Shown one piece after another: positions 3,872 to 59,609 of a DNA stretch of 64,000 bases. This DNA is from Diatrype stigma. Lineage: Eukaryota > Ascomycota > Sordariomycetes > Xylariales > Diatrypaceae. Numbering within the stretch: position 1 is the stretch's first letter; each line of letters opens with the position of its first letter. The stretch covers positions 124,001-188,000 of the forward strand of contig JAKJXP020000019.1 of assembly GCA_022225965.2 (NCBI GenBank), in the 5' to 3' direction. The position numbers were made by a program, and so were the translations under genes. Below the pieces are notes generated by a model. The model was not told the DNA's origin. It made no database searches and saw only the letters and a list, made by a program, of their open reading frames with translations.

Positions 3872-5876
3872 TCACGAAAATTTGAGTTTGCTTTGTCCAT
3901 GCTCAACTTTACCTCGGCCCTTTGATGCCTTTTTGGACGAGGATGCATGAGTCCCTTTTTGGTTGTGAGAGCCAGCGTTGTGGCTGGCTAATGCCGGCTT
4001 GCCACGTTCCTCCTCGTGAAGGTCCTTAGCCAGATGCCAGTCCTGGTGATTTTGTAGTGCCTCGGGGCTTTCGAGCCTTGTGCTGCAACGCGGACATGCA
4101 TAATCTGCGATTGATGCCCGACGAACCCCAGATCTGTCTATTGGGGTCCCCGGTGTATCGTCCGTGATGGTGTGCTCTGAGGCCGAGGCCGAATGCGAGT
4201 GCTGAGGTTCGTCGCCGACATCGCCACCGGAGGTTTCCTTCTTGAGAAAGAAGCTTTGAATATCAGGCTTATCAACGCGTCTCTTCTTCTCAGGAGGTTC
4301 CATTGCAGGTGCTTGCAATGCACCTTCCCGTGGATTGGGTTTGGCCCCCTGCAGATCGCCCCCTTTTACCAGAAAGGCGCCAATGCCCATATTTCCCGTG
4401 ATGCCGTCTTCGAACCCACTAACGCTCAAGCTGAGGTTCACACAGGGCCAAACTCTGCCCTCTTGGACTATCTGACCGAGGAGGTTTTTAGCGAGGTCGA
4501 ATAGGATAGCTTCGTCTAAGGCCTTCCCCTGCGGGATGCTACTGGAGCGTGAACGTGTCTGGGAACCGTATCGGTGATGCAGATTCATCGTCTTTGGTCG
4601 GCGTTTATTCTCAAGCACACCTTCTTCCACCAATCGCGAGAAGATATCGGCGACAAAAATGCGCAGCCACTTGACAGCTTGGTCTACGTTGTTGATAAGC
4701 GGTCTGAACGACTTTGCGGAGAGCATCGATTTGATCTGTGTCCGTGAGTTTACCTCACTCAAGTCAACACCCCGGATGGTGTTGTAGAGCCATGTACCAG
4801 TATCGTCGTCTAGCTTGAGCTTCATCTGCTCTATGGGCACGGAAAGCAAGTCTTTGATGGTTTCTGTGTGGAACGCGGACGTGACCTGTTCCCCAAGCTT
4901 GCCCCCTAGATTGCGAATCTTGGTAAATTTCATGCCGGAGAGAAAGTGCTGCACGGCACGATTCCGTATCACAGTCTGCTGATTGGGTTTCTTGTGACCG
5001 CTACCTAATTTACTGAGCATCTTATTACGCGCTATGCCTGCGGAGCAAGTATAGCCTAGACTTCGACGGATCTCTGCTCGTATGTCTCGAACAATCTCGG
5101 ATCCAACGAGGATAGCCACGTCATCCCAGTCGGGATCATCCGCCTCGGCATCCGCATTGTCAAGATCAACAAGCGCGTCCGCCTGCCAGTCAAGAGCGGT
5201 CACGGGTGGGAGCGGCAGCTTCTCGGTGGGGTCATCGTAGGGCGGATGGTTTGCAAGTTCCGGGAACCTCTTCAGTAGTATGGAGTGGATCTGGGCGGAC
5301 AAATCGATGAAGACCTCGTCGATGCTTGCCTTTTCCACCTTCTGCTGGGTTGGAGGCAAACATTTCTTGATCAGGGCAAGAATATTCCTCGACTGAAGTC
5401 TGTAAGGGTCTAGCGAGACCTTGTGGGTTCCGATGTGAGCTGCTGCATCGTCGTGATAAGCCCATTTCTCGTCGCCCTCCTTCCATGTAGCAACGTGTTG
5501 CGCAATGAGTTGGGGGCAGACCTTCTTCGCTTCGGTCACGGTGCAATGCCGGCCAATGCCAAACTCGCGGGCTGGATAGTTGATGGCAATCAACCCTTGC
5601 CTAGGAACAGTGAGCCAATGACAACGGAGGATATTCAATTAATATTAAACAAGGTTGGTACCATTGCTGGACAGCCAGAGGCTGGTTCTCGGCGATTCCC
5701 AAACGGACCATTTCACATTGGGCGTAAAAGGCATCGAGATCAATATGAGCTATCACCCTTAGTGGTGACGATGTCGAGTATGATGATAAGAGATTAAGAT
5801 GTTTATATGAGAACTGCGATCTCTGCCGACCGCCAGTGGATACAGGCGACGACACGTGAGAGGCAGGAGACGACAT
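3872..5876 (-). CDS. RAD30: DNA polymerase eta (translesion, Y family)
   Basis: Two exons, 5876-5662 and 5600-3872, joined across a 61-nt intron (GTACC...CCTAG, branch GCTCAC), give 647 aa, normal for the family. Y-family polymerases insert nucleotides opposite UV lesions in the nucleus. Visible motifs in order: HIDLDAFYAQ (metal-binding D46) near the N-terminus; ASIDEVFIDL with catalytic D166/E167; the SAGIARNKMLSKL finger/palm segment; and a little-finger region with RRPKTMNLHHRY. Near residues 517-524 the K-x-x-I-x-x-F-F pattern resembles a PCNA-interacting PIP box. A C2H2 ubiquitin-binding UBZ finger lies at about 574-594 (C-x2-C ... H-x3-H). The tail is basic. The start is the first ATG of the exon carrying the DLDAF motif; splicing joins codon W72 across the intron. 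All key residues are present, so the gene appears functional. RAD30 is the yeast name. Confidence 0.95.
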
Positions 5877-10984: not shown

Positions 10985-11260
10985 TTTATTCGTAATGCAT
11001 TACGATCTTTTTATTTTTACCCGTAATCCATTCGTAATGCATTATAACCTTTTTATTTTTATCCGTAATTTATCCGTAATGTATTACGATCTTTTTATTT
11101 TTATCCGTAATTTATTTATAATATATTACGATCTTTTTATTTTTATCCGCAATTTATCCGTAATGCATTACGGCTTTTTCGAGTTTTATATGCGATTTAT
11201 CCGTAATGTGTTACGGCCTTTTCGAATTTTATGCGCGACTTATGCATAACCCTTTTAAGT
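10985..11260. repeat. Tandem repeat, about 42-bp period
   Basis: Six or so degenerate copies of a unit containing CGTAATNNATTACGATC followed by TTTTTATTTTTATC, with starts near 10998, 11039, 11081, 11123 and 11164. The period is a multiple of three, so one + frame repeats every 14 codons. The array degrades rightwards. Confidence 0.85.
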
Positions 11261-11635
11261 TTTGTACGTAATTTTCTCGTTATAATATAACGCATTATAA
11301 GTTTTTCGAAATTTATTCGCGGCTTATATATAATTTTTTCGAGTTTTATTAATATGAATTATTTTACGAATTCCAAGGTTTGTTATATTTATTAATAATT
11401 TTAGCCATTAAATTAATTTATTTATAAGCGATATTTGCATATTTTTATTTAAAAATGCCTTTTTTGTTGCAATTATATTTTGCAAAACGTATATATGTTT
11501 ATGTTCTTATTTCGAATTGGTATTAACTTTGTTTTATTATATAGGCATTTTATTTTTATACCGCGGTAAATAATTTCTTTCGTATTGCTTTTGGATATGC
11601 GGTTTTTTAATTTCCTGGTTCTTTTTAGTTTGGTC

Positions 11636-12030
11636 TTTTTTAATCAGTTCCTTTTTAGCCAATTCCTTTCTAGCCAGCTCTTTTCCAGCCAGTTTCTTTC
11701 TAACCAGTTCCTTTCCAGCCAATTCCTTTTTAGCCAGCTTTTTTCCAGCCAGTTCCTTTCCAGCCAGTTCCTTTCTAGCTAGCTCCTTTTTAGCCAGCTC
11801 CTATTTAGCCGGCTCCTCTTTAGCCAGTTCTTTTTTAATTGGCTCCTTAATTTCTAGTTCCTTAGTAGCCGGCTTCTTTCTAGCCAGCTTCTTTTTAATT
11901 GGCTCCTTAATAGTTGGCTCCTTAATAAGTGGCTTTTTAGCAGGTGGCTTTTTAATAAGTGGCTTATTAATTTTTGGCTTATTAGTTTCTGGCTTTTTAA
12001 TAGCTGGCTTATTAATTTTTGGATTTTTAA
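11636..12030 (-). repeat. 15-bp minisatellite (KELAG-type pentapeptide on -)
   Basis: About 25 degenerate copies of a 15-bp unit resembling CCTTTCTAGCCAGTT. Read on the minus strand, the unit keeps frame and encodes a charged pentapeptide of the KELAG/KELAR kind for at least 35 codons before RIP-like degeneration. Similar units recur at about 20036-20095. It may be part of a former minus-strand gene or simply a minisatellite; no Met-initiated gene is supported. Confidence 0.8.
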
Positions 12031-14814
12031 TAGCCAGCTTTTTAGTTTTAGCCTTTGGCTTATTTTTATTCGACTTTTTATTCTTTAATAATTTAGTTAC
12101 GCCATTTATTTAAATTTAATCGACGTCGTATAAATTTAATTTACGAAATGTTTAATAATATGTATTATCGTAATAAATAGGTTTAGAATAATTTATTTCG
12201 TATAGTTGTCGCCCGTTTTAAATAACATATTATTTAACGAAATTACCGATTACGGCGACGTTATTAAAAAAAGCCGTCGTAAATTTCGATATTATCTAAT
12301 TTACGGGCCAAATTAAATTTTAATAACGATACGTTTTAATTAAATTTAAAAAACGAATCGATATTATAAATCCCCTTTTAAGTTTAATTTTATTTTATTT
12401 TTAATTATTATTTGCCTTTTTTATTTTTTGTTATTTTAAGCTTTCCAAATTTATTAATAAAACAATTCTTTAATTTAATATTGCCAAAAATACGGTTACG
12501 TTAATATATTTAATTTGTTTCTTTGCCGTTTTTATTATTTTTTAATCCGATTATGGCATTATTTATTTTTTAATCGCGTAATAAACCGCATAATAAGCCG
12601 CATAATCGCTTGTTTAATCGGATTGCTCGAATTATTTGTATTTTTGCTTCGGTTAGTTATTACGTAACGCTTAAACGTATATCGACGTTAATATTAAAAT
12701 TAACGCCATAATTTTTCCAATTGTAACATATTAGCCCTAATCGTAATTCATAGGCTTTTTTCGATCTTTCGTTTTCTTTATTTTCCAAGCGAATTCGAAT
12801 ACGGGGACGAAAACGATCCCGAATACATAATTATGCGTTTTTTCGGATAATTAAACGTAAATAACGGCAACAAATTCGATTTCCAAAACATCGTAATTTC
12901 GACGAAAAACCGGTATAATACAAAGGCAATAACTAAAAGCTTGCGTTATTTCCTAAAGACGTAGCTATTAAAAGGCAATTCGATAAAGCCTTAAAAGCGA
13001 AGCAAATATATTTCTATCCGCGTTATTAACATAAATAATTCGACGTTAAATTATTAAGCATAAATATTTATATTATTTATTAAATAAAGAATAATAAGAA
13101 GTTAATAAACGATTTTTTTTATTTTTTTGCTGGCAATAATTTAAATTTTGGCGACGTTTTTTTTTAATTTATTCCGTTTAAAGCAATCGAAAAGCTATTT
13201 ATTATAAAAGTTTATATTGCAGTTAATGTTTTTATTATTCATTTTATTATTATATAATTTAATTAATTAGTTAATTTCTTATAAATTCGTAATTAATAAT
13301 ATAAATATACGGAACATATTATATATTTTTTATGCGATATTAATAAGATATATAACGAATTGCCTTTATTTTTAAAGCATTTCGATATAATTCTTTTTCG
13401 TTTTAAAAATACCGATAATATTTCAGAAATAAAACGTTAATTTCGCCGGCGGTTTCGTATTTGTCGTTAAGCTATATATATGTAGCTGAATTTTTTTTTT
13501 GCAAATTATCCGGATTATGTAAACTTTATATTAAATTATTATAACTTATTTTAATTACTTAAAAATGGCGATATTTACGATTTGCTTAATATTTATAAAA
13601 CGGATAAAATATATATAGCGGTAAATCCGGACGCGGGTTCCGTAAATAAGGCTATTTTAAAAGATATCGATATATATAATAAAGCGGCGGTTTTTAATTT
13701 ATTTATTGAAGCATTTAAATTGAATCGCTTAAAGGAAAACAATAGGAATAATCCGTCGTTTCCGGAATCGAATATATCGTTATAAGCAATTTAATTAAAT
13801 GTTGCTTATTATTTCTTAATGCTATTTATACGGTAAATCCTTTTTAATAAATTTAATTAATCTTACGTTTTATTTTTTCTTGCGTATTTTATATTTTATT
13901 TTTATGGTAAGGCCGATTTTGTTAAATTTTAATAGCGTATTATTAAATATTAAGATTATTTTAATTATATTATACGTTAAAAAAATGATTGCTTTATTAA
14001 GCATTATATTTTTCGATATATTGCATTAAATATTTTAATGCATAGGTAAGTTCGTAATTATAGCCGTTATTTTATAAATAAGGAATTTAATTTGCTTATT
14101 TTTAAGCGCTAATTATAAAAGGCTTTTAAAAATCCGGATAAGCCTAAGGCATAAATTATTCTTAATTGCATTATTCGGTTTATAAGTATTATTAAAGGCA
14201 TTTGTTCTTTTTAATATAAGCATTAGCGAAAATTAAAAGCCTTTTTTTATTGCTTAAAGCTGTCGTTTGCGTTTATTATTTTAAATTCGGTAAATTTTTA
14301 TTAATGGAGCTTATATCGTTATATGCCTAAGTTTAATTAATGGAAGCAATTAAACGAATATAAACGAATAAACTTATTTCGGCGCTTATTACGTAAGAAT
14401 TTTCATATTGCTGCGTGGCATTTTTTTTTTCGGGCTATCTTGTTTCGAAAAATCGTGCTGGCGGAAAAATTTAATTTCGGCGATTTTTGGTATCGTTTCG
14501 AATAATAAAATCGTAGCAGCGGTTACGTTTATGGATTATATTAATTTAAAGATAATCCCCTTCCGGATATGGATATATAAGAAGGTTAAAACATATACGT
14601 TAAAATTTAGGGCTATTATATTATTGCTATAAATCCTAAGTTTTAAGAAATCGGTTACGGCGGTACGAATAACAATTCGTTATGCATTAATTCTTTTTAT
14701 ACGGAATTTACGTAACAATGATTAAATAGTATCGTAAACCGTTATTAGCGTTATAAATATTTTATTACGTATTATTTCCGGATTATTAAAAAAGCGGCTA
14801 ACGAAATTCGGAAA

Positions 14815-17370
14815 AAGGGCGAGAAGTTATTAAATCCCGTTTGCCGCTTTAATTTTTTACGTTTTATACGAAACGAATTTTGCGTTATTAAAATGGAAGA
14901 TAAGTTTTGGTAATTATTTAATGCCGTATGTAATGATATTTATTTTAACCAATTTAATCTATTAGTAATTATGTCGTAGCTAGTTAATACGGATATTTTT
15001 CCGTATATTAGCGATGCGGCTGTTATTAATTATGTAGCCAAATATTGCGGCAAATCCGAATAATAATCTGCCATATATATTTAGATTGTTCAGTTTATTT
15101 TGCTGCATATAATTAATAATAACCCTATGTTTTCGTTTGTTTTTAAGCTTATAAATAAGCTTATTAAAAAAAGGGATTATTTTGTTTAAAAGGTTTGTTA
15201 TTATTTGCTGCAGCTTCCTTTATAAAAAGATAATCGTATGGTATGTAACGTCGATTGTTGCTTTTTTGAGAAGTATGTCCGAATTTTGGACCTTAATGGC
15301 AAAAGCGATGAGGTTAAAAAGAGCGTTATAGCTTGGGAGAAGTATAAATAAAGAAATATATATATGGAATACGTTTCGTATTTCGAATTCGTCGAGCGTT
15401 GGGATTTTAAAGGTTAGGACTTTAAGAAATGGCATGTTATTAATGCGTAGCCTAAAGTATTAAATTATTTCTTTCGCTATAAGCTTATTCGAATTTATTA
15501 GCAATTTTTTAATTTTTGTCGAATAAAGTTATTATTAAACCATTTTTATTGCCATATTAACGAGTTATTAATTAATAACGAAATTAAGTTTAATAATTAT
15601 ATCGTAATATATGTATATTATATATAATATTATATTTATAAGGATAATTATTACGGCACGATTGGTCGAAAAAATGTTTAGCCCGATAATAAAAAGTTCG
15701 AGCTTGGTTTAAATAATGCGAATGATATTATTTTAAAAGATTGGCAGCATATTATTCGAATGGTGCTAGATTTTTTGTCCGAATAAGAAGACGTTAAATT
15801 ATTTGGCTGCCGTAATATTAATATTAATTACGATTGGTTCTTTTATATTAATCGGTACGTTTATGAGAATTTCGTTAGCGGTAGCTATTAGGAAAAGCGC
15901 CATAAAAAACATTCCGACGATTACGATATTAAGAATTTATTATTAAATGTAGTTAAAACTTTAAATCCCGAACAGCGAATTATATATAATATAATAATTA
16001 ATTATTATTAAAGCTTTTTTATCGGTAATTAATTAAAGCAGTTATTATTATACGTTAATAATAATAATGGAACTGGAAAGTTTTATTTTATTAAGATTAT
16101 ATCGTTACATTTTTAGTAATTATTTATAATAAATAAGTCGTTTATAATTCGAATTGTTTTAATTAATATAATTAATAATTAAATTGGCGGCCAAATATTA
16201 CATTTTTTGTTTCGTTTATTTATCGATAGCGAATATAAGCCCTTAATAAAAAATGCTAGCTTATTAAATATTTTATAACGGCGTTTTTGTAGCGTTTATT
16301 TTCTTATTATCGACGAAAAAAGCATATTCGGCTTATAAAATTTAAACTGGATTAATCGGCGGCTTTAAAAAATCTTTCCTAATCGCCGCAATAGCTATTT
16401 TGGCGGCTTAAATATATTGCTTATCGAAGATTTCTTTTAATTACCTCCCGTTATAAATAAGCCGTTATATGCTTTTAAGCAATTAATTAAATATTACGAC
16501 ATTGCTAAATACGGACTATATAAAGCCTTTAAGCGTTCGGTATTTTTTATTATTATTTAGCGCCAATAAGAATCCAAATAAGCCCGATTTTACGAAGCCT
16601 TATTAAAGTTATAACAACTTAAGGTTTTTGCCGCCTTTTGGAAGTTATTAACGTTTAAATGCGTTATAAAATTCTTTTTTGCCGAAATTATAAGCTTTAA
16701 TAATGCTATACGTATTTATTTTATTAAGGCTCGTATTAATTAATATAACTATAATTACATAATACGGCTTATAAATTTAATTATTTAGGTTTATGCCAAA
16801 TATAAAGGATTTAATATAAATAAGGCCGCTTTTTTTAATGCTAGCAACCTTTTTAAAAGCTTTTTTATTTGCATTAAATACCGGATTATATTAATACGTA
16901 ACCTATAAGGCCATATCGGTTTTATAAACGGAACTTAAGGTACGATATACGACATTTTTTAGGCTTAAGGCTTAAACGTTATAAGTAATGTTTCGGAAGT
17001 TATTATAATAGCTTTTAATAATTATATTGGCCCGGCATTTATTGGTTCGAATAGTTGCGAATTTTGCAATAATTAAGGCAAGGCTGTCGTATTTATTTTT
17101 CGGATTCGATAAAACTTTGTCGTAAAAGGTATTATTTATTACCGAAAGCAATTTTTTTTATTTATTGCATATGTTATTATAATATATAAGTTTTAAGGCA
17201 TTATTTTGCGTTAAATAATGTGCGATATTTCGGATCGTAAGTTTGTTATTGAATTGTTATATATAGCCGTTTTTAAAATGTTTGCATTATAAGGCTTAAT
17301 ATTTGATATTCTATTTAATCGCGGCCGTTTTTATTACGAAAATAATTATCCGCTTATATAGATAAAACTT
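14815..17370 (+). pseudogene. Helitron replicase / PIF1-type helicase relic
   Basis: Helitron proteins join a replication-initiator-like region to a PIF1-family SF1 helicase that moves the element by rolling-circle transfer. Seen in order on +: a CRFNFLRF segment (about 14.84 kb); *LVNTDIFPYISDAAVINYVAKYC with the expected Trp replaced by a stop (about 15.0 kb); NPMFSFVFKLINKL (about 15.13 kb); a YCLLQLPL-like segment; LNPEQRIIYN; Walker A NNNNGTGKFYFIK (about 16.07 kb); Walker B FLIIDEKSIFGL (about 16.3 kb); DFF*LPPV with stop for Gln (about 16.43 kb); NGT*GTIYDI (about 16.94 kb); and FIAYVIIIYKF*GI (about 17.17 kb). Many in-frame stops make it non-functional. Sequence upstream to about 13.5 kb may be the degraded N-terminus but was not recognised. 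Confidence 0.85.
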
Positions 17371-20300
17371 AATAATTATAATACCCGTTTAAAGCATGTT
17401 TTAATTCGGCTTTTATATGCAATTTATTTTTAGTAATTCTTTATTTATTAATTTAATAGCGATAATTTTAATAGCAACAGTTTTTATAGCATTAATTTTA
17501 TTTCGTAAAAAACTTTTAAATATAAATGCAATAGCTTTTTTTTTTATTACGGCAATTTTTCGTATTTTTCATGTTTTTTTAGCTTAATTTTGCGTTTTTT
17601 TTTTTATTTGCAAGCATATGTTAAATATTTCGCCGCCTTATAATTATAGCCGTTTATTTTTAGTTTAAATCGTATATGGCTTAGCCGTAATTGGATTAAT
17701 GTTTTTGTTATAAATGTTTGGCCTGTCGTTTTTTTTGGTTCGGAATTTTGCGAATATGTTATTTTTAAAGGTGCATGTTTTTTTTAGCATTTTGTAATTT
17801 CCGTATTTATGTTTTATGGTACTGGTTCCGGAAATAAATTAGCAGCCATAAAACGGCCATATGTAATAAACGTTAGCTTTATATTGCTAATACGGCGTAA
17901 TATTGGGTTATTTATAAGTTTAAATATATAAGGCCGCTTTGGCATTTATATTAATTAATAAGGAATGCATAATTTTGCTTATGGAAAGGCCGATTTTAAT
18001 AATTACGTATATTTCGTATGTTTATATCGGTAATTTTTTGTCGATCGTATAAGTCGAAAGTAATTGGGGCCCGATTATTATATTTTAAAATTTAATATCC
18101 GTAATGTTTTATTTAATAAATCGTTTTTAAGCCATTTTTATTAAAAACGTAATAATTAAATAAAACAATGCTTATATGTTATTAATATGCGATTTATATA
18201 AATACGTATAATAAATATATACTTAAATAAAAATAACATTTAATTTAATTAATACCGCAAATTCTTTATAAAAGCGATAAAACTAATAAGATATAATAAA
18301 AAGAAATATATCGATTGGCTTTTTAAGAATATCGGTAATTTGTTTAATGCTGGTATGGTTAATAATAATTTGGGCAAGTTTTTGGTTTTTTTTAAGCGTA
18401 CGATAAAATGGGTTTTTTTCGATGCTAGAAATGGAAATATTACGAATAAGCGGCTTAGGTTTTTAATAATGGCTTTTATTGCTAAAAATAGAAATATACG
18501 AAATTCGATAAACCAGCTCCTGTATTTTTTCGTTTTTAATTATATTAATAGCAGGTCGTGATTTGCGATTATTTATAATGGCTGTTACGTATGAAAGATT
18601 TAATTTAAGTGATAATATATTAAGAACGAATTAAAGCTAGCGGATAAAGTAAAGTTGTTACATGAAAGGTTAAAGCTTAAAAATTAAGAATATTAAATAA
18701 AAAAATTTACCTTATATGTTATAATAGGTTTGGCTTATTTAAATGGCTTGTAATTATTTTATTTAAGGTATATATTATGTTTATTGTATTGCTATAATTA
18801 AGAAAGGTATTAGTTGCAATTATTAAAGCTTGCTTGTATAATATTTATAAGTTAGATTTTTAGCCAAACCTAATTAACTTATTTACAAGCCAGATTTTTA
18901 GTTAAACCTAATTTATTTGTTTATTTATTATATCTTTATTGCTAAATCGTTTCCTTTCGAAAAGTTCATTTTATACCATTGCAATAGCTTATATATTATT
19001 CGTTTTAGTCGTTGCCATTTATAACTATATCGTTGCATCCCGTTGCTTATAAGTATTACGATATAGGATTATTCGGCAGCTTATTGGTTATAATCCATGG
19101 CAATAAAACTTCTTAGCGCTAAATTACTAACCATTACGTTTTTTTTGCCGATAAAACCCTTATTTTTAATTACGACTTAAATATTAGTTTTTATTTTATA
19201 AGCAATAGCGATAGATTTTTTCGTAATATTAAGGTGCTTAGTTATATAAATGCGGCAATTTTTAAGATTCGAATTATCGAATTATGGCTTGCTTTAAATT
19301 AAAAATTTTAATTCGAATGCTTATTTAAAAATGGAATTAAAGGTATGGCCTCGTTTGTTACCGAATGCGTTAATTCGTTTAAGTTATTATTTATATTCGA
19401 GATTAATCCGGAATACGCCATAAAAAAAAATAATAAAACGATATATAATATTAATAAGCCGACGTTTATTTGGATGCCGCAATAGGTACTTTTAAGCCTA
19501 TTCGAATATTGGATTAACGTTTTGCATTAAATGTTTCGAAAAATATTCCTGGTTTTCGATTTATTAGCAATTTATGGTACGTATTAAAAAATTTAATAGG
19601 TATATTGCGATTTTTAAAAAAGGTTTGTTTTAAATAAATCCTGTTTTATTATTATCGTCTTTATAAATAAGCTTTCGTAATAAAATAATAAATGAACTTG
19701 TAATTTTTAAATTGCTTATTTTTTTAAGGCTTTATTTATGAATTCCTTTTACGTAAAGCAATGATATAACAATAGTTACGATTAAGTTATTACGTCGTCG
19801 AATATGCTGGGTAATTAAAAAAGAATAATTAAAGAATATATCGGCCTTAAGAATAAAAAGTCGAATAAGCGCAATTAAGTAGCTAATAATTAATTTAATT
19901 AATTTATTACCGTTAATTCCGATTTATTGTTAAATATTGTCCGTATTTTCCCTTATAAGCGCCAGCTTTCGTTTAGTTCCAGTTTGGTATAGCAATTACG
20001 TCGCCCATTTCTTATGCTTTTTTAAAGCCGCTTTCGCCAGTTCCTTTTTTAATAGTTCCTTTCTTAGTAGCCCCTTTTTTAATAGTTATTATTAATGCGG
20101 TCCTGGCCGTTTTTGGATTTCGCCTTTCGATTACGACCATTTATGGGCAATAAAAGGCTAAATGCTTTACGTATATATAAATATTATACGCTTTATTTAA
20201 AGCATAGGCTTTCGACCGAATACCTAATAAACGAGCCATATCCTTTATTCCCCGTAGGCTAAAAAGAATGGGATTCGTATTTTCGTAATTTTTAACGATA

Positions 20301-20461
20301 AAATAATTAAAGGGGCTATAAATACGAATTATATTTATGCGGTAAATTATATTAAATTATTGCGCTTGGATTTAAAAAGAAATTAACGAAAGGCGTTATT
20401 TATAAGGCTTAAGTTATCGGTAATTAATATAATCCTAAGCAGAAAATTATAATAATAAGGA

Positions 20462-20562
20462 CGATTAATCGTAGGCGAAAACGCTCGAAGTATTTCCCAA
20501 GCCTGAATTTCTGGATTTGATTTCCGTATTACATTATCTTTATAGAATAATCTCCGGTTAGG
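20462..20562 (-). repeat. Right copy of a 101-bp inverted repeat
   Basis: Inverted copy of 10534-10634, with the G-to-A-type differences expected if this copy lay inside the RIP-affected block. The central stretch of about 30 bp is nearly identical in both copies. Confidence 0.85.
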
Positions 20563-51097: not shown

Positions 51098-51152
51098 CCC
51101 GACAGTTATTTCAGAGGCTCAGACCTTTCTTTGCGTTAATTTTTGCTTTTTT

Positions 51153-51167
51153 AGCGCCTTCGGCGCT
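51153..51167. repeat. Left subterminal GC hairpin
   Basis: AGCGCC, TTC, GGCGCT: a perfect 6-bp stem 47 bp inside the left end, GC-rich in an AT-rich setting. Confidence 0.85.
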
Positions 51168-51837
51168 CCGCCCGATATATTGTAATGCTTATAAAGCCTA
51201 AAATTAACATAAGAATATAATCTAATCAATTAGAATTTTTGTTTATTTAAAATCGAAAATTAACGCAAACTAATTTAAAACCGCAATCGGATAATAAGCA
51301 TAAATAACGCGAAAAATTAAGTAAATTTATATTTAACGCGGATTTCCTTAATGAATATACGTTTTATTAATAAGCCAAATATACCATTAAATTCGTAACG
51401 ATCTCAGCTTTTTAGTCGTATAAAAATCGTATTTCTGCGGCCAAATTTAACCAAGAACCCAATTCATTATAACGTTTTTAAATATAAAGCTAAATAATCC
51501 CTTTTTAATTTCGGAACTTTCCGAATTCCCCAATTCATCGCAACGGCAAAAAAAATCCCAAATTTAGGATTCAAGTAAAAATCGTTTCGTTAAGGCTAAA
51601 AGTAATTTTGAAATATCCATAAATATTGCTAAAAATATCGTACAAAAAACGATCGTTTATTAAAAGAATTTCCGTAATTCTTAACGGTATTCGGCTTAAT
51701 AACGAAATAAAAAGTCCAAACATTATAACTTTAAAGCATTTATATATAATTGAATTACGGATTTAATCCGTAAAACTACGTTTATAAACGAATTGCGCCG
51801 TTTAAAAATGCAGCAATTGCTGGAAAGTTAAAGATTG

Positions 51838-53959
51838 GCTATAATTAAAACGGATAGCGATAAATCAATTCAGGGTTCTTTCATTATTCGTACAGTCCGC
51901 CAAGAAATAAAAAATCTTATTTAGGAACCTTCTTTTGCTAATTTCAAGCCCTATAAGAATTATATAAAAAAAAAGGCCATTATCGCCGAAGTTTGCAATA
52001 TAAAATGGCTCCAAAAAACCCTATTACAAGCCTGGTTAATACTTAAGAAAAAAGCGCCATTAATGATGGCCCTTTTTATTTAACTCTTACGGAATCAAGA
52101 TAAAGTTCATAAAATAATTATCGAAATAACCAGTAATAATAAATCCGGAGATTAAATCTATTTATTGGCTTTACTTTTATTAAAAAGCTACGCCCGAAAT
52201 ACCAATAAATTCTTGCGGCAGGTTTTGGGTATTTATATACTTACCAATGGCACTTTCCGCCGCATTATTAATACCCTTTTTAACATAGGTATTATTTCTT
52301 TTTATTTTATATTAAATCGTATACTTATAAACATAACCAAAAAGGCCGAAGAAAATATTAAACGAATTGCTTACGATTTTAATAATATTATTATATACGA
52401 CAACTTCAATTTTTTAAACAAAATTCGTAAGCTAGCAGGTAATAAATAGGCACGAATAATTAGCCTTATAACCGCATATCTTATTGGCTACCCGGATCTT
52501 TAAAGACCCCTTTTTTAAAAATCCCTTAATCTTAAGCAACTATTTATCCGTAACATAATCCTAAAATATCTGCTTCTTCGTTCCAGTTCCTTTAACGAAG
52601 CTTTTAAGTATTTTATTAAGTTCTTTATTTTAAACCTAATCTTCGATAATAAATCAAAGCTTTTAAAGCTTCCTATTATTAAACGTATTAAGTACCGCAA
52701 TAATTCATATCTTTAATTAAACGTTATATTCGAAAATAAAAAAATTATTAAAGATATTTATAAGCTATACGAAAAACTTTAAAAGCGCCGATTCGAATTT
52801 AAAAAATACGAAGATCGTTTAACGTATAAGTCCCGAATATTCAAGCTGCTGTTTTATTGTTAATGTTATAATATAATTAGTAATATACGGTAACCAAAAA
52901 ACGACCTCCTTTATACGCCGGATCAAGCAGTTTTAACTCGAAACCAGTAATTCCTGGAAACAAAGAAAATGAATGCTTTCGGTTCCTGCTTTCTTTCATA
53001 TCGAGCTTAATTACATCGAAATGCTATTTCGTATGTTTTGGAATACGGAAAACAAAGAACGAAGCGGTACTATGCTTAAAGCAAACGTCGATTTCTTCTA
53101 ATGCGGAAGACATATTAACAAAAAGGATATAAAATATTACCAAGCCGTTCCTTTATTGGTTTACGGCTTTACTGCCCGAATCCTTACTTTCGTAATAAAC
53201 GGCTTACATATTCGAAAAATCCTTTCCGATAACCAAATCAATATCGATAATATTAAATAGGCCATTTTAAACCATAAAACTCTCGTCGATAAAATCCTTA
53301 ACGATACTTAAACGATAGTTTTCATTAAGAAAGGCTAAACGGGCAAATACTTTAGCGTTAATAACGGCAATATTAATTTAGAATTTCGCAGTTAATATCG
53401 TCTTATATAATATATTAAGGTTTTTTTAATTATATACGAAGCTGTTTGCTATAAAAATTATAACTTACTTGTTAATATTATTCCTTAACTTCCTATTATG
53501 TTTTAAAAAAATAAATTATTTAATTATGGCCCGGAAATGCTTTATTTTGCTTGGATTTTATATTCCGAAGTTTGCCTTAATAAAGTTATTTGCGATATTA
53601 TTCTTAAAAGTAAGCTAATTCGTTATATTATCGCCGATAACATGTATAAAGCTATTAACTTAATATTAAAGCATATAAACAATTCCTATACTCTTAATAT
53701 TAAGCATAATAAAAATTCGACTCACGATATTCGGTCGACTTTCTTTCGCTTGGCCTTAAACGGCAATTATCTTACTATTATACGCAAGTTTATCGAATAT
53801 ACCTTTAACGAAACGTACCATAAGGATATACATAAAGGTAATAATGCCTTCGTTAATATTATATCGTATGTTTATAAGTTATTTAAAAATAACATAACCT
53901 ATCGTGGCCACAATAAGCCCGATACATACGATGCTTTTAATATCTTCGAATGCAATTAA
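51838..53959 (+). pseudogene. DUF6589-like transposon protein, RIP-degraded
   Basis: A nearly continuous + strand frame with scattered stops. The N-terminal part reads LLLLKSYARNTNKFLRQVLG, GTFRRIINTLFNIGIISF and NIIIYDNFNFLNKIRKLAG, the pattern of fungal DUF6589 proteins (Ser/Arg motif, then G-x-x-R-R-x-I-x-x-L-x-x-x-G, then Y-D-N-x-N). A middle part has FFHIELNYIEMLFRMFW and a C-terminal part has IADNMYKAINLILKH (53537-53959). DUF6589 proteins are common, multi-copy and transposase-like in fungi, but I know of no demonstrated activity. Stops such as the one after RKLAGNK interrupt the frame, so no product is expected. The true start lies upstream and is not resolvable. Confidence 0.65.
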
Positions 53960-54394
53960 TAGGTTTTGCTACAAAAACTTAATAACTTCAACAATATAAT
54001 TCCTAAACTTATTAATACGGCTAATTAACGTATTATCCTTAACGTTAATATAATAAAAAGCACAGAAAACAATATTATTAATTAAAATAAAAAGGATAAA
54101 CGCCTTTTTAATACGGTTAATAATGCCGGGATTAATAATTTTTGATCTTATAGCTTAAACCTTACTGCTATTAATTAATCTTCGAAATTACGATAAAAGA
54201 ATTAACGGATTATAATAAACGATTAAGTACTTTTAATAAGCGTTATAGGCAAAACTAATTATTTAATTACTGGTTAATTGGTTAACTGACTAACTAACTG
54301 GCTAAATAAATATTAAATCGTTACCGTAATAATCGTGGGCTTTTATCGTAATATTAATTAGGTGTATTATAACATATCTAATTAATTAATAACT

Positions 54395-54775
54395 AAAAAG
54401 AATTCCTACCTAAGTATATTATAATATACCTAGCCAGAAAGGATTCCTATTTGGATATATTAATATATATGGTTAACTGGTAATATAAAAGGGTTCCTAT
54501 TTTAATATATTATAATATACCTAATTAATTAGTACCCAGAAAGAATTCCTATTTGGGTATGTTATAACACACCTAGCCAAAAAGAATTCCTATTTAGATA
54601 TATTAATATATATGGTTAACTGGTAATATAAAAAGGTTCCTATTTCAGTGTATTATAATATACCTAATTAATTAATAGCTAGAAAGGGTTCTTATTTTAG
54701 TGTATTATAATATACCTAATTAATTAGCAGCCAAAAAGGGTTTTTATTTGGATATATTATAACATACCTACCTAA
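54395..54775. repeat. Degenerate tandem array with palindromic core
   Basis: About eight copies of a unit of 43-54 bp containing ATTCCTATTT followed by a palindromic core resembling GGTATATTATAATATACC and then AATTAATTA. The array lies between the two + strand frames of the transposon. Confidence 0.8.
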
Positions 54776-54900
54776 TTAATAACGCATTCGCATTTCGGTT
54801 TTTCTTTTCCTTTCCTTTAGTTTTATTAATCAATAATAACAACTCCATTTATATTATCATTTTCATTATTATTACTATTAACAGCAATAATAATAATAAT

Positions 54901-55811
54901 TATGTCTGCCGTTTCGGGTTCTTCGAATCAAAAAGACCCATATAATATACCATTTTCGCCATCGCCGCCCCCCGCTAAAAAAACTAAAAAATCGGCCGCC
55001 ATATAGAAGCCCAAAAATATATAAGTAAAATCTATTAATTCTGGTTAAATATGATATATTTAACTGGTTATTTATAGCCCCTAAAATAACATAAAATGCT
55101 ATTTAAGTAACTTACGAAATTATTTGCCGCCGTTAAACCATCCGGCCTATTGCCCTTTCTCTTATCCCCTTATTGGATCTTCCGGTCCAAAAAACTCTTC
55201 GATATAAAACTAATAACGCCAGAAAGGATAACTTTAATTTCCCTTTTAGTATTACTAGTTATAATCGAAACCTTAAAGCAACGTTGCTATAAATATTTGG
55301 CCCTATTAGGCAGAAATGTATTCGCTGCCGAAATAATAAAAACCTATAGGACGTATATATTGGAATTAATAGAAAGGCTTATGCTGGCTGCCTATATAAC
55401 AGCCAGGAAAAGAAATATTACGGTTAATAACAGTATTATATCTTAAATGTTATTAATTCCTAATTAACAAATCGATAAACCATAATATAGCTTTAGTTCC
55501 AGCCTAATATTCTTTTGCTTTAGCTTTAGCCTTAAGTACGTAACTTTATCCAGATTGCTTTATAAGCCATATTAATGTATGGAAATAAATATACGGTCCG
55601 AATATAGGACCATAACGAAAAAATAACGTGCGGCAGCCGAAGCGGCATTCTTAAAACGCCTTAATATTTTACGAGAAATTAAGGAAAAAAAGGGCGACAA
55701 TAACGAATTAAGACCTTTACGTGTTTTCTTTGAATTTACTAAAGAGGGAAAGGAAAAAGGGCTGGATAACGATATTGAATTCGTTATGAATAACTTGGAT
55801 TTTTTTTTTTA
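54901..55811 (+). pseudogene. Unidentified second frame of the transposon
   Basis: Begins with ATG and MSAVSGSSNQKDPYNIPFSP followed by PPPAKKTKKSAAI, then RIP-type stops. Parts remain open: LALLGRNVFAAEIIKTYRT (55150-55446) and, further on, AAFLKRLNILREIKEKKGD ending IEFVMNNLDFF near 55811. Ser/Pro then Lys-rich N-terminus and charged helical C-terminus suggest a nuclear DNA-associated protein, but no family is recognised. It may be two genes. Confidence 0.4.
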
Positions 55812-56129
55812 AATTAAAATACAAACTTAAGCTTGGCTGGTATTATTAAATACCTAAACCTTTATATATATAATTGAACAATACTTAAAAATGGCGCCAT
55901 TCGCCTTTAAAATAATACTTATGTATAACTTCTTTATTGCTAAGCTAACTTTTTTTATAAATCCTAACGAACCCGTATGGCCAAAGGTAATGCCTTTTTA
56001 TTCGGAATCCTACGGATTTGAGCAATAAATAAAAACAAAAAAGCCTATTTTTTGGCCTTTCTTTTTTATCTTTTATTATCCTTAATAATTTTTTAGCGCT
56101 AATAAACCATAAGGAATAATTAAATATAA

Positions 56130-58270
56130 AAAGCAACTAAAGAATTACCTTAATTAGCAAGGTACTCTTAATTAAATAGGTTAGGCATTTTATTTATTAA
56201 ACCAGCGACGTTTAAAAACGGGAGATACTGTTTTTTCGAAGAAAACTGCTTAAAGATAACATATTGCAATTTCGGTTTCATAAAAAAATCCCTTATTAAA
56301 TCGTACCGAACGGAATTAACGAGGCCTTATGCTTATTCTTTGCATTATAAAAACAAAAGCTTTAGGGCAATTCCTAAAAACGAAGCGGCTTGCGGTTTAT
56401 CCGCAATGGCTTTAAGCCGAAGTAGTAAGGCTGGAATTCGATTTAAATCGTTGGTACAGGCATTGCAATAATTTCCTTTTTTTACGACTTACTTATATTC
56501 GAGATTCGGATTATTTAGCGGTTCTTGGAAATAAGTAAAAATAACCTTTTTAAAACAAAAGGCATTTAAGAAAGCAAAAATAATAGGGCTTAACTTGGAT
56601 TTATTGATTTCGTTTTGTTTCGATCATTTAATTTTAATAATAATATTGAAAAAATTTTACGAAGCTTTAGGTAAAAATACCGGTATATCCCGTTTTTTTA
56701 TTACAGAATTATATAAAACAAAACTATCAGCTTAATTGGTTTCGTTTGTTTAATTAATAGCATTATCGTTATTATCTTTTTTTGTTAGTATCATTTTATG
56801 TAAAGATATGCGTATTCGGAAAGCATAAGCAAGTTGAACCTATAATCGACGATAATGGAATATTTTGGGTTTTAAAGCCTTTGGGATATTTTCCGAAGTG
56901 CCTAAATTATTAAAAGCCCAATATAAAGCAAAGATATAAGCAATTTCTTAACCGGTTTGCTTTTTTATAATACGCCTAATACGTTGTTATATATTAAAAA
57001 GGCTTGCATTAAGGAATAAGTTAAATTAAACAATTCTCCTTATATTAGGAATATTTAAACCTATTTCGAAAGATATAATAGCAAGCATAATTTAACAGGC
57101 ACTATTAACTTAAGAAAATTCGTTAAAGATACGATTTTTATTAACGGGACGAACATTTGCATCGTATTTCGAAATAATCTTATAAACAATAGGTTTAAAA
57201 TAACCGCGTTATAATATTAAATAATTAATAAAATAAAAACGAACCGCAAATAATTGTGGCTTATTATTTATATAAATTACCGTTTTCGGAATTGCTTTAA
57301 TTTCCCGGGGATCGGCGTTTTTTAAAAGGAATTCCAGTCGTTTATAATCCCTAATCGAGTCTCGAAATAAAGGCTAAACAATAAGAGAAATTTCGAACCG
57401 GTTAACGGATATACGAATAATATATATATTAGCGTCGAATCTAGCGTATTATAAAATATATTCCTAATTATTCCGATTTAAAGTAACTATATATCCGAAT
57501 TAAGGAAGGCTATTCGAAAAAAAAGATTTCGCCGTATATAAATACGTAAAGTCCTTACGAAAGCTACGTTACTTATTAATAACATAGAGTTTATCGATTA
57601 TAAATAGCCCTACGGCATTATAAAAACCAAGGCTTTTCAGGACTTGCTTGAATCGTAAATGAAAAAGCTATTTAAGGCTTAAAAGGATATAAAAATATTT
57701 GCCTTCCTTAATATCGTTCCATAAAAACGGTTTTTATATAAGATTAGCTTTAATTATATACCTAGAAACCGTATAATTAACCTTAAAATACGTATTTATA
57801 TTAACGAATATAAAAATTAAATCAAGCATTTCTTTTTATATAAACTTAGCCTGGCTTTTATCCAGTTTCGTTAAGAATACGATTTAAACAATAATTAAGC
57901 CAATAATAGCAATAAAGGCTTATAAAATAACGCTTTTGTTATAATTAATTGCAGCAATTAAAACAATATCGGCTTTTAGGTATATTAGGCGTTTAATAAC
58001 TTCGATTTGGCCATTTTTAGCCTTTTTTGTATTAATTATAGCTTATATAACTGTAGCAATAAAGATTTTCTGCATTTTTTCTCGTTTGGCCGTATATTTA
58101 GTAATTCATTTATAGCGTTTTAGGAATACTTTTCTAAATTTACCAGCAGTATTCTGAAATCCTTTAAGTTTATTAATAACCGTCCGAATCTGCTCTTTTA
58201 AAGGATCATTAATAAGTTCATATTACTTAATTCAAGCCAAGGTTGGCGCTTAATGCTAATTGCTATAAAA
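56130..58270 (-). pseudogene. RecQ-like SF2 helicase, RIP-degraded
   Basis: Read on the minus strand the helicase motifs appear in order: Walker A region VLIAAINYNKSVIL (motif I, AATGYGKS-like before mutation); LLSLK*LFHLRFKQVL; DExH box VGLFIIDKLYVINK*; motif III region YIVTLNRN; then RDSIRDYKRLEFLL, IPKTVIYINNKPQLFAV, SKYDANV, IMLAIISFEIGLNIPNIRRIV and motif VI *QRIRRIIKKQTG*, followed by AYIFALYWAFNNLGTSEN. A C-terminal extension continues to FFMKPKLQYVIFKQF near 56.25 kb. The DExH change to D-K-L-Y and stops at expected Gln/Trp codons are RIP signatures. Repetitive RecQ-like helicases of this type occur in fungal mobile and subtelomeric DNA. It runs convergently to the DUF6589 frame. Limits are approximate. 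Confidence 0.8.
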
Positions 58271-58963
58271 TAACGCCATAATATTATTTCGAGCAATTAT
58301 TAAAATTTAAAATAAAATATTATAAGATTATAAGTTAATCTTTAAAAATAGCATTATAAAGCTTTTAATGGATTTTCTTATAACCTATTATTAAGATATA
58401 AATTAATTATAGCCCTAAAGAATCTCCGAATAATTTAAATCTAATTATTTATAAATATTGCCGAATATAATTACAAAAAGGAATTGCCGTTATTTTAAAA
58501 AGTATCGTCGTCGTTAAAAATATAAGTAAAGAACGGATCCTTAAAGTTTGATAATAATAGGAGCATTTCTTATAAAAACGTAAAAGAGGTATTTAATCGT
58601 CGATTTTTTCGCGTAAGTTGTTTTTTTCGACGGGCAAATAGGAATTTAATATATACTGGCCGTAAAAATATCAAAGTAATATCTTTCGAATCGTCATTTA
58701 ATTCTTATCTTTAATATTCATTTGGCTTAACTTTATAATGCGTAATGGCTAAAAAATCGCGTAATAAACAAATAATATAATTCTGTTTATACCTAATTTT
58801 TTGCGTTACTTAGGGATTTTTCCGATCGCGGTTTTAAACGTCTTTTTTAAGTCCTTTTGCAGGTACGTACCCCAATATATACGGGAAATGCTAGGGTTGG
58901 TTTAAATTATACTAAAATTACCGCTAAAGTTTACTAGCAGAATCATTGGTCAAATGATGTGGG

Positions 58964-58980
58964 GCTGCGCGCAGCGCAGC
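58964..58980. repeat. Right subterminal GC hairpin
   Basis: GCTGCGC, GCA, GCGCAGC: a perfect 7-bp stem ending 31 bp inside the right end. Confidence 0.85.
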
Positions 58981-59609
58981 TGGCCCAGAAAAACGTCTGT
59001 TTCTGAGATAACCCGACAGGAGTCTCATCCAAGTACTAAGGCTGATGTAGGTACATACATACCTAGGTAACTACCTGCCGCTAACCAAAACGTTAGGTGT
59101 CTTGCGTAGGTACTGTGTATGTATTGTATGTACGGGTCAAGTAGTTAGGGAAGTTAGAACTTAGGACATGGACATGGACATGGACCGCGTGGTAGTGACA
59201 ATGTGACAATTGGTAGTTGTGACAAGCTGGACAAGGTGTGGATGGAGCTTGCGGCTTGGAGCTTGGAGGGATGGAGGGGTCGGGAAGCCCGTTCTGGAAC
59301 TGTTCTTTTCACTCCAGTTGATACCTAGCCATGCGCCATCATGCTCCCAAGGCTTCTATACTAGGTACCTAGTATACCTAGTGGCTAGGTAGGGGCTCCT
59401 AGCTTATCCAGTTCATCGTCGTCCTTGTGTGTGCCCCTGTGCCTATCAGCCACGCCCACGCACTGGGCACCGAAGGCTGTTCGTTCTCGAGTATATTTCG
59501 AAGGACGGCCGGGCTGCCAGGCCGGTGTCTTGTCCCGGCGGGGTCTTTAGGCCCGTTCGAGGTTGCAGCTTTATTAGTCCAGGAGATTGCACATTGCACA
59601 TGGTCTCAT

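Follow-up and report, generated by a model that had tools for sequence, protein, structure and literature searches.

Is the AT-rich block that carries a DUF6589-like gene and a RecQ-like helicase gene in a 64-kb window of Diatrype stigma DNA a complete transposon, and if so, which protein moves it and to which group does it belong? The window (the whole stretch of DNA analysed) lies within contig C19 of D. stigma, a wood-inhabiting fungus in a genus of Xylariales. The genome searched comprises 49 Mb in 224 contigs; passages of PMC12217926 describe a D. stigma assembly. The first part of the question has a plain answer: a real, bounded transposon is confirmed at window positions 51106-59011 (7,906 bp), flanked on both sides by CCCGACAG. 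As to the second part, this is very probably a copy, killed by repeat-induced point mutation (RIP), of a cut-and-paste DNA transposon that has multiple copies and three genes, with DUF6589 as its transposase.

An earlier note on this DNA had placed the boundaries at these positions from the identical 8-bp flanks, and they were borne out: the motif TTATYTCAGA occurs once per strand in the window, at 51106 on the plus strand and ending at 59011 on the minus strand. The left end TTATTTCAGAGGCTCAGACC and the reverse-complemented right end TTATCTCAGAAACAGACG pair imperfectly as a 10-bp inverted repeat, with a single mismatch, and then share a CAGAC at an offset. Two 8-mers drawn at random from the window were identical in only 6 of 200,000 draws. 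The element has a G+C content (GC) of 0.285 and a TA/AT ratio of 1.12, as compared with 0.473 and 0.91 for the remaining window. No intact gene is left in this copy, with 10 stop codons inside the DUF6589 match and 15 inside the helicase match.

At least 3 further places in the genome match the left end and at least 14 match the right end. Following inspection of 18 genome stretches for both ends, these were located in 11 further insertions (C40, C54, C66, C37, C22, two in C61, C30, C20, C46 and C34), for a total of 12 with the window copy. Inverted termini with a target site duplication (TSD) of fixed length at different sites, the broad hallmark of DDE cut-and-paste elements, were found across this set, as the cut-and-paste reading of the earlier note would have it. 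Specifically, 8-bp duplications are exact in eight insertions: the window copy (flanks given above), C40 GAGCTAAC, C54 CAAGCAAG, C66 GTCCATAC, C37 GTAAAGTC, C22 GCCCGAGC, C20 GTAGGTAT and C34 GCTAAACT. In three others (both C61 insertions and C30) the flanks differ by one transition, and in C46, a divergent both-ended copy, they are displaced by a base: 8 bp match only with a 1-base shift, or 9 bp with one transition, and the duplication there may be 9 bp instead of 8 bp. The duplicated sequences are varied, the commonest single letter at any position being G at position 1 (8/12, counting left copies).

The ends of three insertions are far apart (C54 ~23.5 kb, C22 ~14.8 kb and C46 ~16 kb), and other DNA therefore probably lies between them. 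C34 is a short element (1,085 bp) whose ends are of the same type and whose TSD is exact. The left end was not recovered for C137, C57 and C202, the C57 stretch running out at the contig end. C202 (~431-1473) is a short deletion-type derivative in which internal left sequence is joined to the final ~730 bp of the element; a left end with a matching TSD was looked for in C202 and not found. When the joined flanks of six of the 12 insertions (window, C40, C54, one C61, C30 and C46) were searched against their own genome, no empty site was found, the 12 matches being the 12 flanks themselves. A scan of viral contigs gave 13 pattern stretches, none of which was a relative.

The window copy shows RIP-like degradation: here and in six further long copies (C66, C37, both C61, C20 and C30), GC was measured at 0.24-0.29, and the dinucleotide indices are also RIP-like. 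The C40 copy is largely spared, with a GC of 0.463 and dinucleotide indices resembling those of the remaining window, the exception being an AT-rich stretch in the middle of the copy. Because it is largely undegraded, C40 can be used as a guide to gene structure. Its DUF6589 gene has two exons separated by a 56-bp intron and encodes 893 amino acids (aa), a product identical to the public D. stigma gene model SLS62_005740 and scoring 205 bits against PF20231. All 12 PF20231 matches in the genome fall within 10 element copies, the window copy included. This gene is followed on the same strand by a DUF3716 gene, for which we infer the splicing, encoding a basic PPPAKK stretch, a zinc finger (PF12511, 32.3 bits against a cut-off of 22) and an acidic tail; the helicase gene lies on the opposite strand. 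The gene content proposed in the earlier note (DUF6589 on the plus strand and a RecQ-like helicase on the minus strand) was thus correct as far as it went, but the DUF3716 zinc-finger gene on the plus strand had been missed.

These genes travel together. Following tblastn of the 10 other long both-ended copies, the helicase and DUF3716 were each matched in all 10, and DUF6589 was matched over 865-893 of its 893 residues in nine and over 173 residues in C46. Among copies with a right end only, C137 matches all three genes (DUF6589 over 175 residues), while C57 matches only the helicase before the contig end; C34 and C202 have no tblastn match to any of the three. Additional copies of the sort anticipated in the earlier note are therefore present in the same genome: they share the ends, have 8-bp duplications that differ from site to site, and contain both coding regions. 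Boundaries, TSDs, copies and gene linkage were all observed directly in the D. stigma genome. Outside it, DUF6589 and helicase proteins of one source were found on equal-sized contigs in Lasiosphaeria ovina (645,570), Achaetomium macrosporum (14,770) and a JGI metagenome (6,123); the latter two contigs are so short that the genes would be neighbours there. Such a DUF6589 partner is lacking for the other 16 helicase hits out of 20, several of which are on contigs too small for both genes. Homologues were also found in Xylaria and Chaetomium.

The core of DUF6589 is predicted to adopt an RNase H fold and to act as a DDE transposase. This fold is proposed because of a structural second look with VIA-align, in which the 17 best rows were the P element, Hermes, ISCth4, Transib and RAG proteins; together with the predicted topology and the conserved D, D and E, it points to an RNase H fold with D319, D466 and E724 as candidate catalytic residues. 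The second D is missing in one of the 24 rows of DUF6589 alignment A2, from which P0018 (CSNA instead of YDNF) was left out; P0017, P0018, P0023 and P0027 were left out of alignment A3. In the hAT/P/MuDR/Kolobok/Dada group, a C/DxxH motif is described between the second D and E (passages of PMC9587614), but DUF6589 has AxxH instead. Of 28 homologues, 19 have PAxFH and one has PASFFH; the pattern is unmatched in eight, some of them truncated. A DUF6589 sequence profile gave a best E-value of 0.98 against the PDB. The names DUF6589 and DUF3716 are absent from the papers searched, which bears on the use of the names only. Two results count against a three-gene transposon moved by DUF6589: Foldseek alone returned no significant match for either DUF6589 model, and in Chaetomium globosum DUF6589 and the helicase are on contigs that differ in length.

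Helicases are already known in the fungal KolobokH and AcademH lineages, and the combination of transposase and helicase is therefore not unprecedented. A serious contender, if somewhat short of probable, is that the element is a member or close sister of the Academ superfamily, DUF6589 being the Pfam name for the transposase that accompanies the helicase in AcademH. As described in passages of PMC10799480, AcademH is a low-copy, helicase-encoding lineage of Basidiomycota, Ascomycota and Mucoromycota; like the D. stigma element, it is a DNA transposon that carries a helicase and occurs in fungi. Its TSDs are given as 9 or 10 bp (passages of PMC10045372), which is near 8, and C46 can be read as having a 9-bp TSD with one transition. 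Compared by description only, the two differ in that the TSD is 8 bp in 11 of the 12 D. stigma insertions (C46 being 8 or 9), and in that a DUF3716 gene, present in D. stigma, goes unmentioned in the few passages describing AcademH.

The helicase might also be passenger cargo picked up by the family rather than a working part of it. In C40 the DUF6589 gene is open while the helicase frame contains in-frame stops (the public model P0030 omits those stretches). Three observations make cargo unlikely. First, the 13 places in the genome that match the helicase strongly are all element copies, 11 with both ends and two, C137 and C57, that have just the right end; 15 of the 17 matches lie in these 13 copies, the two others being weak matches in open frames of 672 and 1,440 aa that are perhaps host RecQ proteins. 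Second, 10 of the 12 closest homologues (P0030-P0041) carry a GKS Walker A motif, and 10 carry DELH. Third, the helicase accompanies DUF6589 in the three further sources named above. The helicase frames of C40 score 22.2 bits for DEAD (cut-off 26), 47.6 for Helicase_C (cut-off 23.5) and 20.6 for RecQ_Zn_bind (cut-off 25). Homologue P0032 scores above the cut-offs for DEAD (39.7 bits) and Helicase_C (44.9 bits) with no RecQ_Zn_bind match, and its nearest solved relatives are WRN, RecQ and BLM; the recQ_fam score of the helicase is below its cut-off. A telomere-linked RecQ repeat such as Stagonospora X26, as far as the source excerpt describes it, was considered and rejected, as the helicase lies inside elements bounded by terminal inverted repeats (TIRs) and TSDs.

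A KolobokH-type element, that is, a fungal Kolobok with a RecQ helicase, is very improbable. According to passages of PMC9587614, KolobokH carries a RecQ helicase and is found only in fungi, and in the red-algal Kolobok-1_CCri, as in D. stigma, RecQ is encoded on the complementary strand; however, Kolobok TSDs are TTAA and the termini 5'-RR...YY-3', whereas none of the 12 D. stigma duplications is TTAA, the 8-bp TSDs are varied and the termini are TT...AA. The AxxH motif is a further difference. The TSD of the D. stigma element fits the description of neither KolobokH nor AcademH.

Zisupton/KDZ elements have an 8-bp TSD and occur in fungi, like the D. stigma element. No hAT, THAP or KDZ Pfam domain was among the matches of the proteins scanned, although a divergent domain could escape detection; likewise, the lack of a KDZ or Plavaka Pfam match among these proteins does not exclude either group. 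Both the P element and hAT (Hermes) resemble the D. stigma element in the predicted catalytic core and a TSD of ~8 bp, but their THAP and hAT domains (the latter including the dimerization domain PF05699) are unmatched in DUF6589 proteins, which also have AxxH for C/DxxH, and to our knowledge neither group carries a helicase. A hAT element with eroded hallmarks, despite its 8-bp TSD and the place of Hermes among the top structural rows, is scarcely tenable given the unmatched hAT domains, a P element structural score at least as good as that of Hermes, and ends lacking the CAGNG-type terminus that is a hallmark of hAT.

We are left with a real transposon family that has a predicted DDE transposase of unassigned superfamily, a linked helicase and a zinc-finger partner; a new superfamily is possible. 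In its fullest form this proposal is tentative: DUF6589 would define an undescribed eukaryotic DDE superfamily with an 8-bp TSD, TTATYTCAGA ends, AxxH in place of C/DxxH and a constant set of three genes (transposase, DUF3716 zinc-finger protein and convergent RecQ-like helicase). The helicase would be a further component that cut-and-paste transposition requires, and would have been acquired independently of KolobokH and AcademH.

Under a cut-and-paste mechanism driven by DUF6589, the protein would be a DDE enzyme that combines an RNase H fold with a helical insertion domain, like those of the P element, hAT, Transib and RAG1. It would most likely bind the TTATYTCAGA ends and cut the element out, and joining of these ends to target strands 8 bp apart would generate the 8-bp duplication. 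The helicase, as a stable part of the element, would probably open or process the ends, or assist repair or replication around transposition, while an accessory role in DNA binding or regulation is probable for the DUF3716 protein (with its basic stretch resembling a nuclear localization signal, zinc finger and acidic tail); we infer all of these roles. An orphan Pfam family would thereby gain a testable function, as fungal proteins annotated as DUF6589 would be DDE transposases. With the ends defined exactly and a candidate transposase available as an open frame in C40 (SLS62_005740), excision is directly assayable, and a further DDE transposase-helicase lineage would open to experiment the question of why some cut-and-paste transposons need a helicase.

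Table 1. Parts of the D. stigma element and its flanks in the window copy.
Feature	Positions	Strand	Basis
Left 8-bp TSD CCCGACAG	51098-51105		Direct reading and comparison of insertions
Left TIR TTATTTCAGAGGCTCAGACC	51106-51125	+	Corresponding ends in 11 other insertions
DUF6589 (PF20231) gene remnant, degraded; exon 1 51481-52824, exon 2 52886-54160	51481-54160	+	tblastn
~50-bp tandem repeat array with short palindromes, between transposase and zinc-finger genes	54365-54779		Comparable array in C40
DUF3716 (PF12511) zinc-finger gene remnant; N-terminal exon with basic PPPAKK stretch 54926-55015, zinc-finger exon 55098-55415, probable ATG 54902	54926-55415	+	tblastn
RecQ-like helicase gene remnant	55967-58249	-	tblastn
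Right TIR, inward reading TTATCTCAGAAACAGACG	58992-59011	-	End comparison
Right 8-bp TSD CCCGACAG	59012-59019		Direct reading and comparison of insertions

The tandem repeats with palindromic cores are present between the transposase and zinc-finger genes of both the window and C40 copies (in C40, stretch L032, 5195-5958), and are possibly binding sites or promoters. Only one of the 11 family-level DUF3716 matches in the genome is inside an element (C40), degraded element copies showing only by direct comparison. The ten DUF3716 domains outside element copies are found in C100, C152, C47, C113, C5, C1, C55, C63 (two) and C10, and eight of them have no internal stops. Elsewhere in the window, a second AT-rich block at ~11000-20500 (GC ~0.24-0.28, as compared with ~0.5 around it, in 2-kb steps) lacks a TTATYTCAGA end and is probably another RIP-degraded repeat. 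At 3872-5638 on the minus strand, a 588-aa open frame resembles, when read by eye, translesion DNA polymerase eta with a C-terminal zinc finger.
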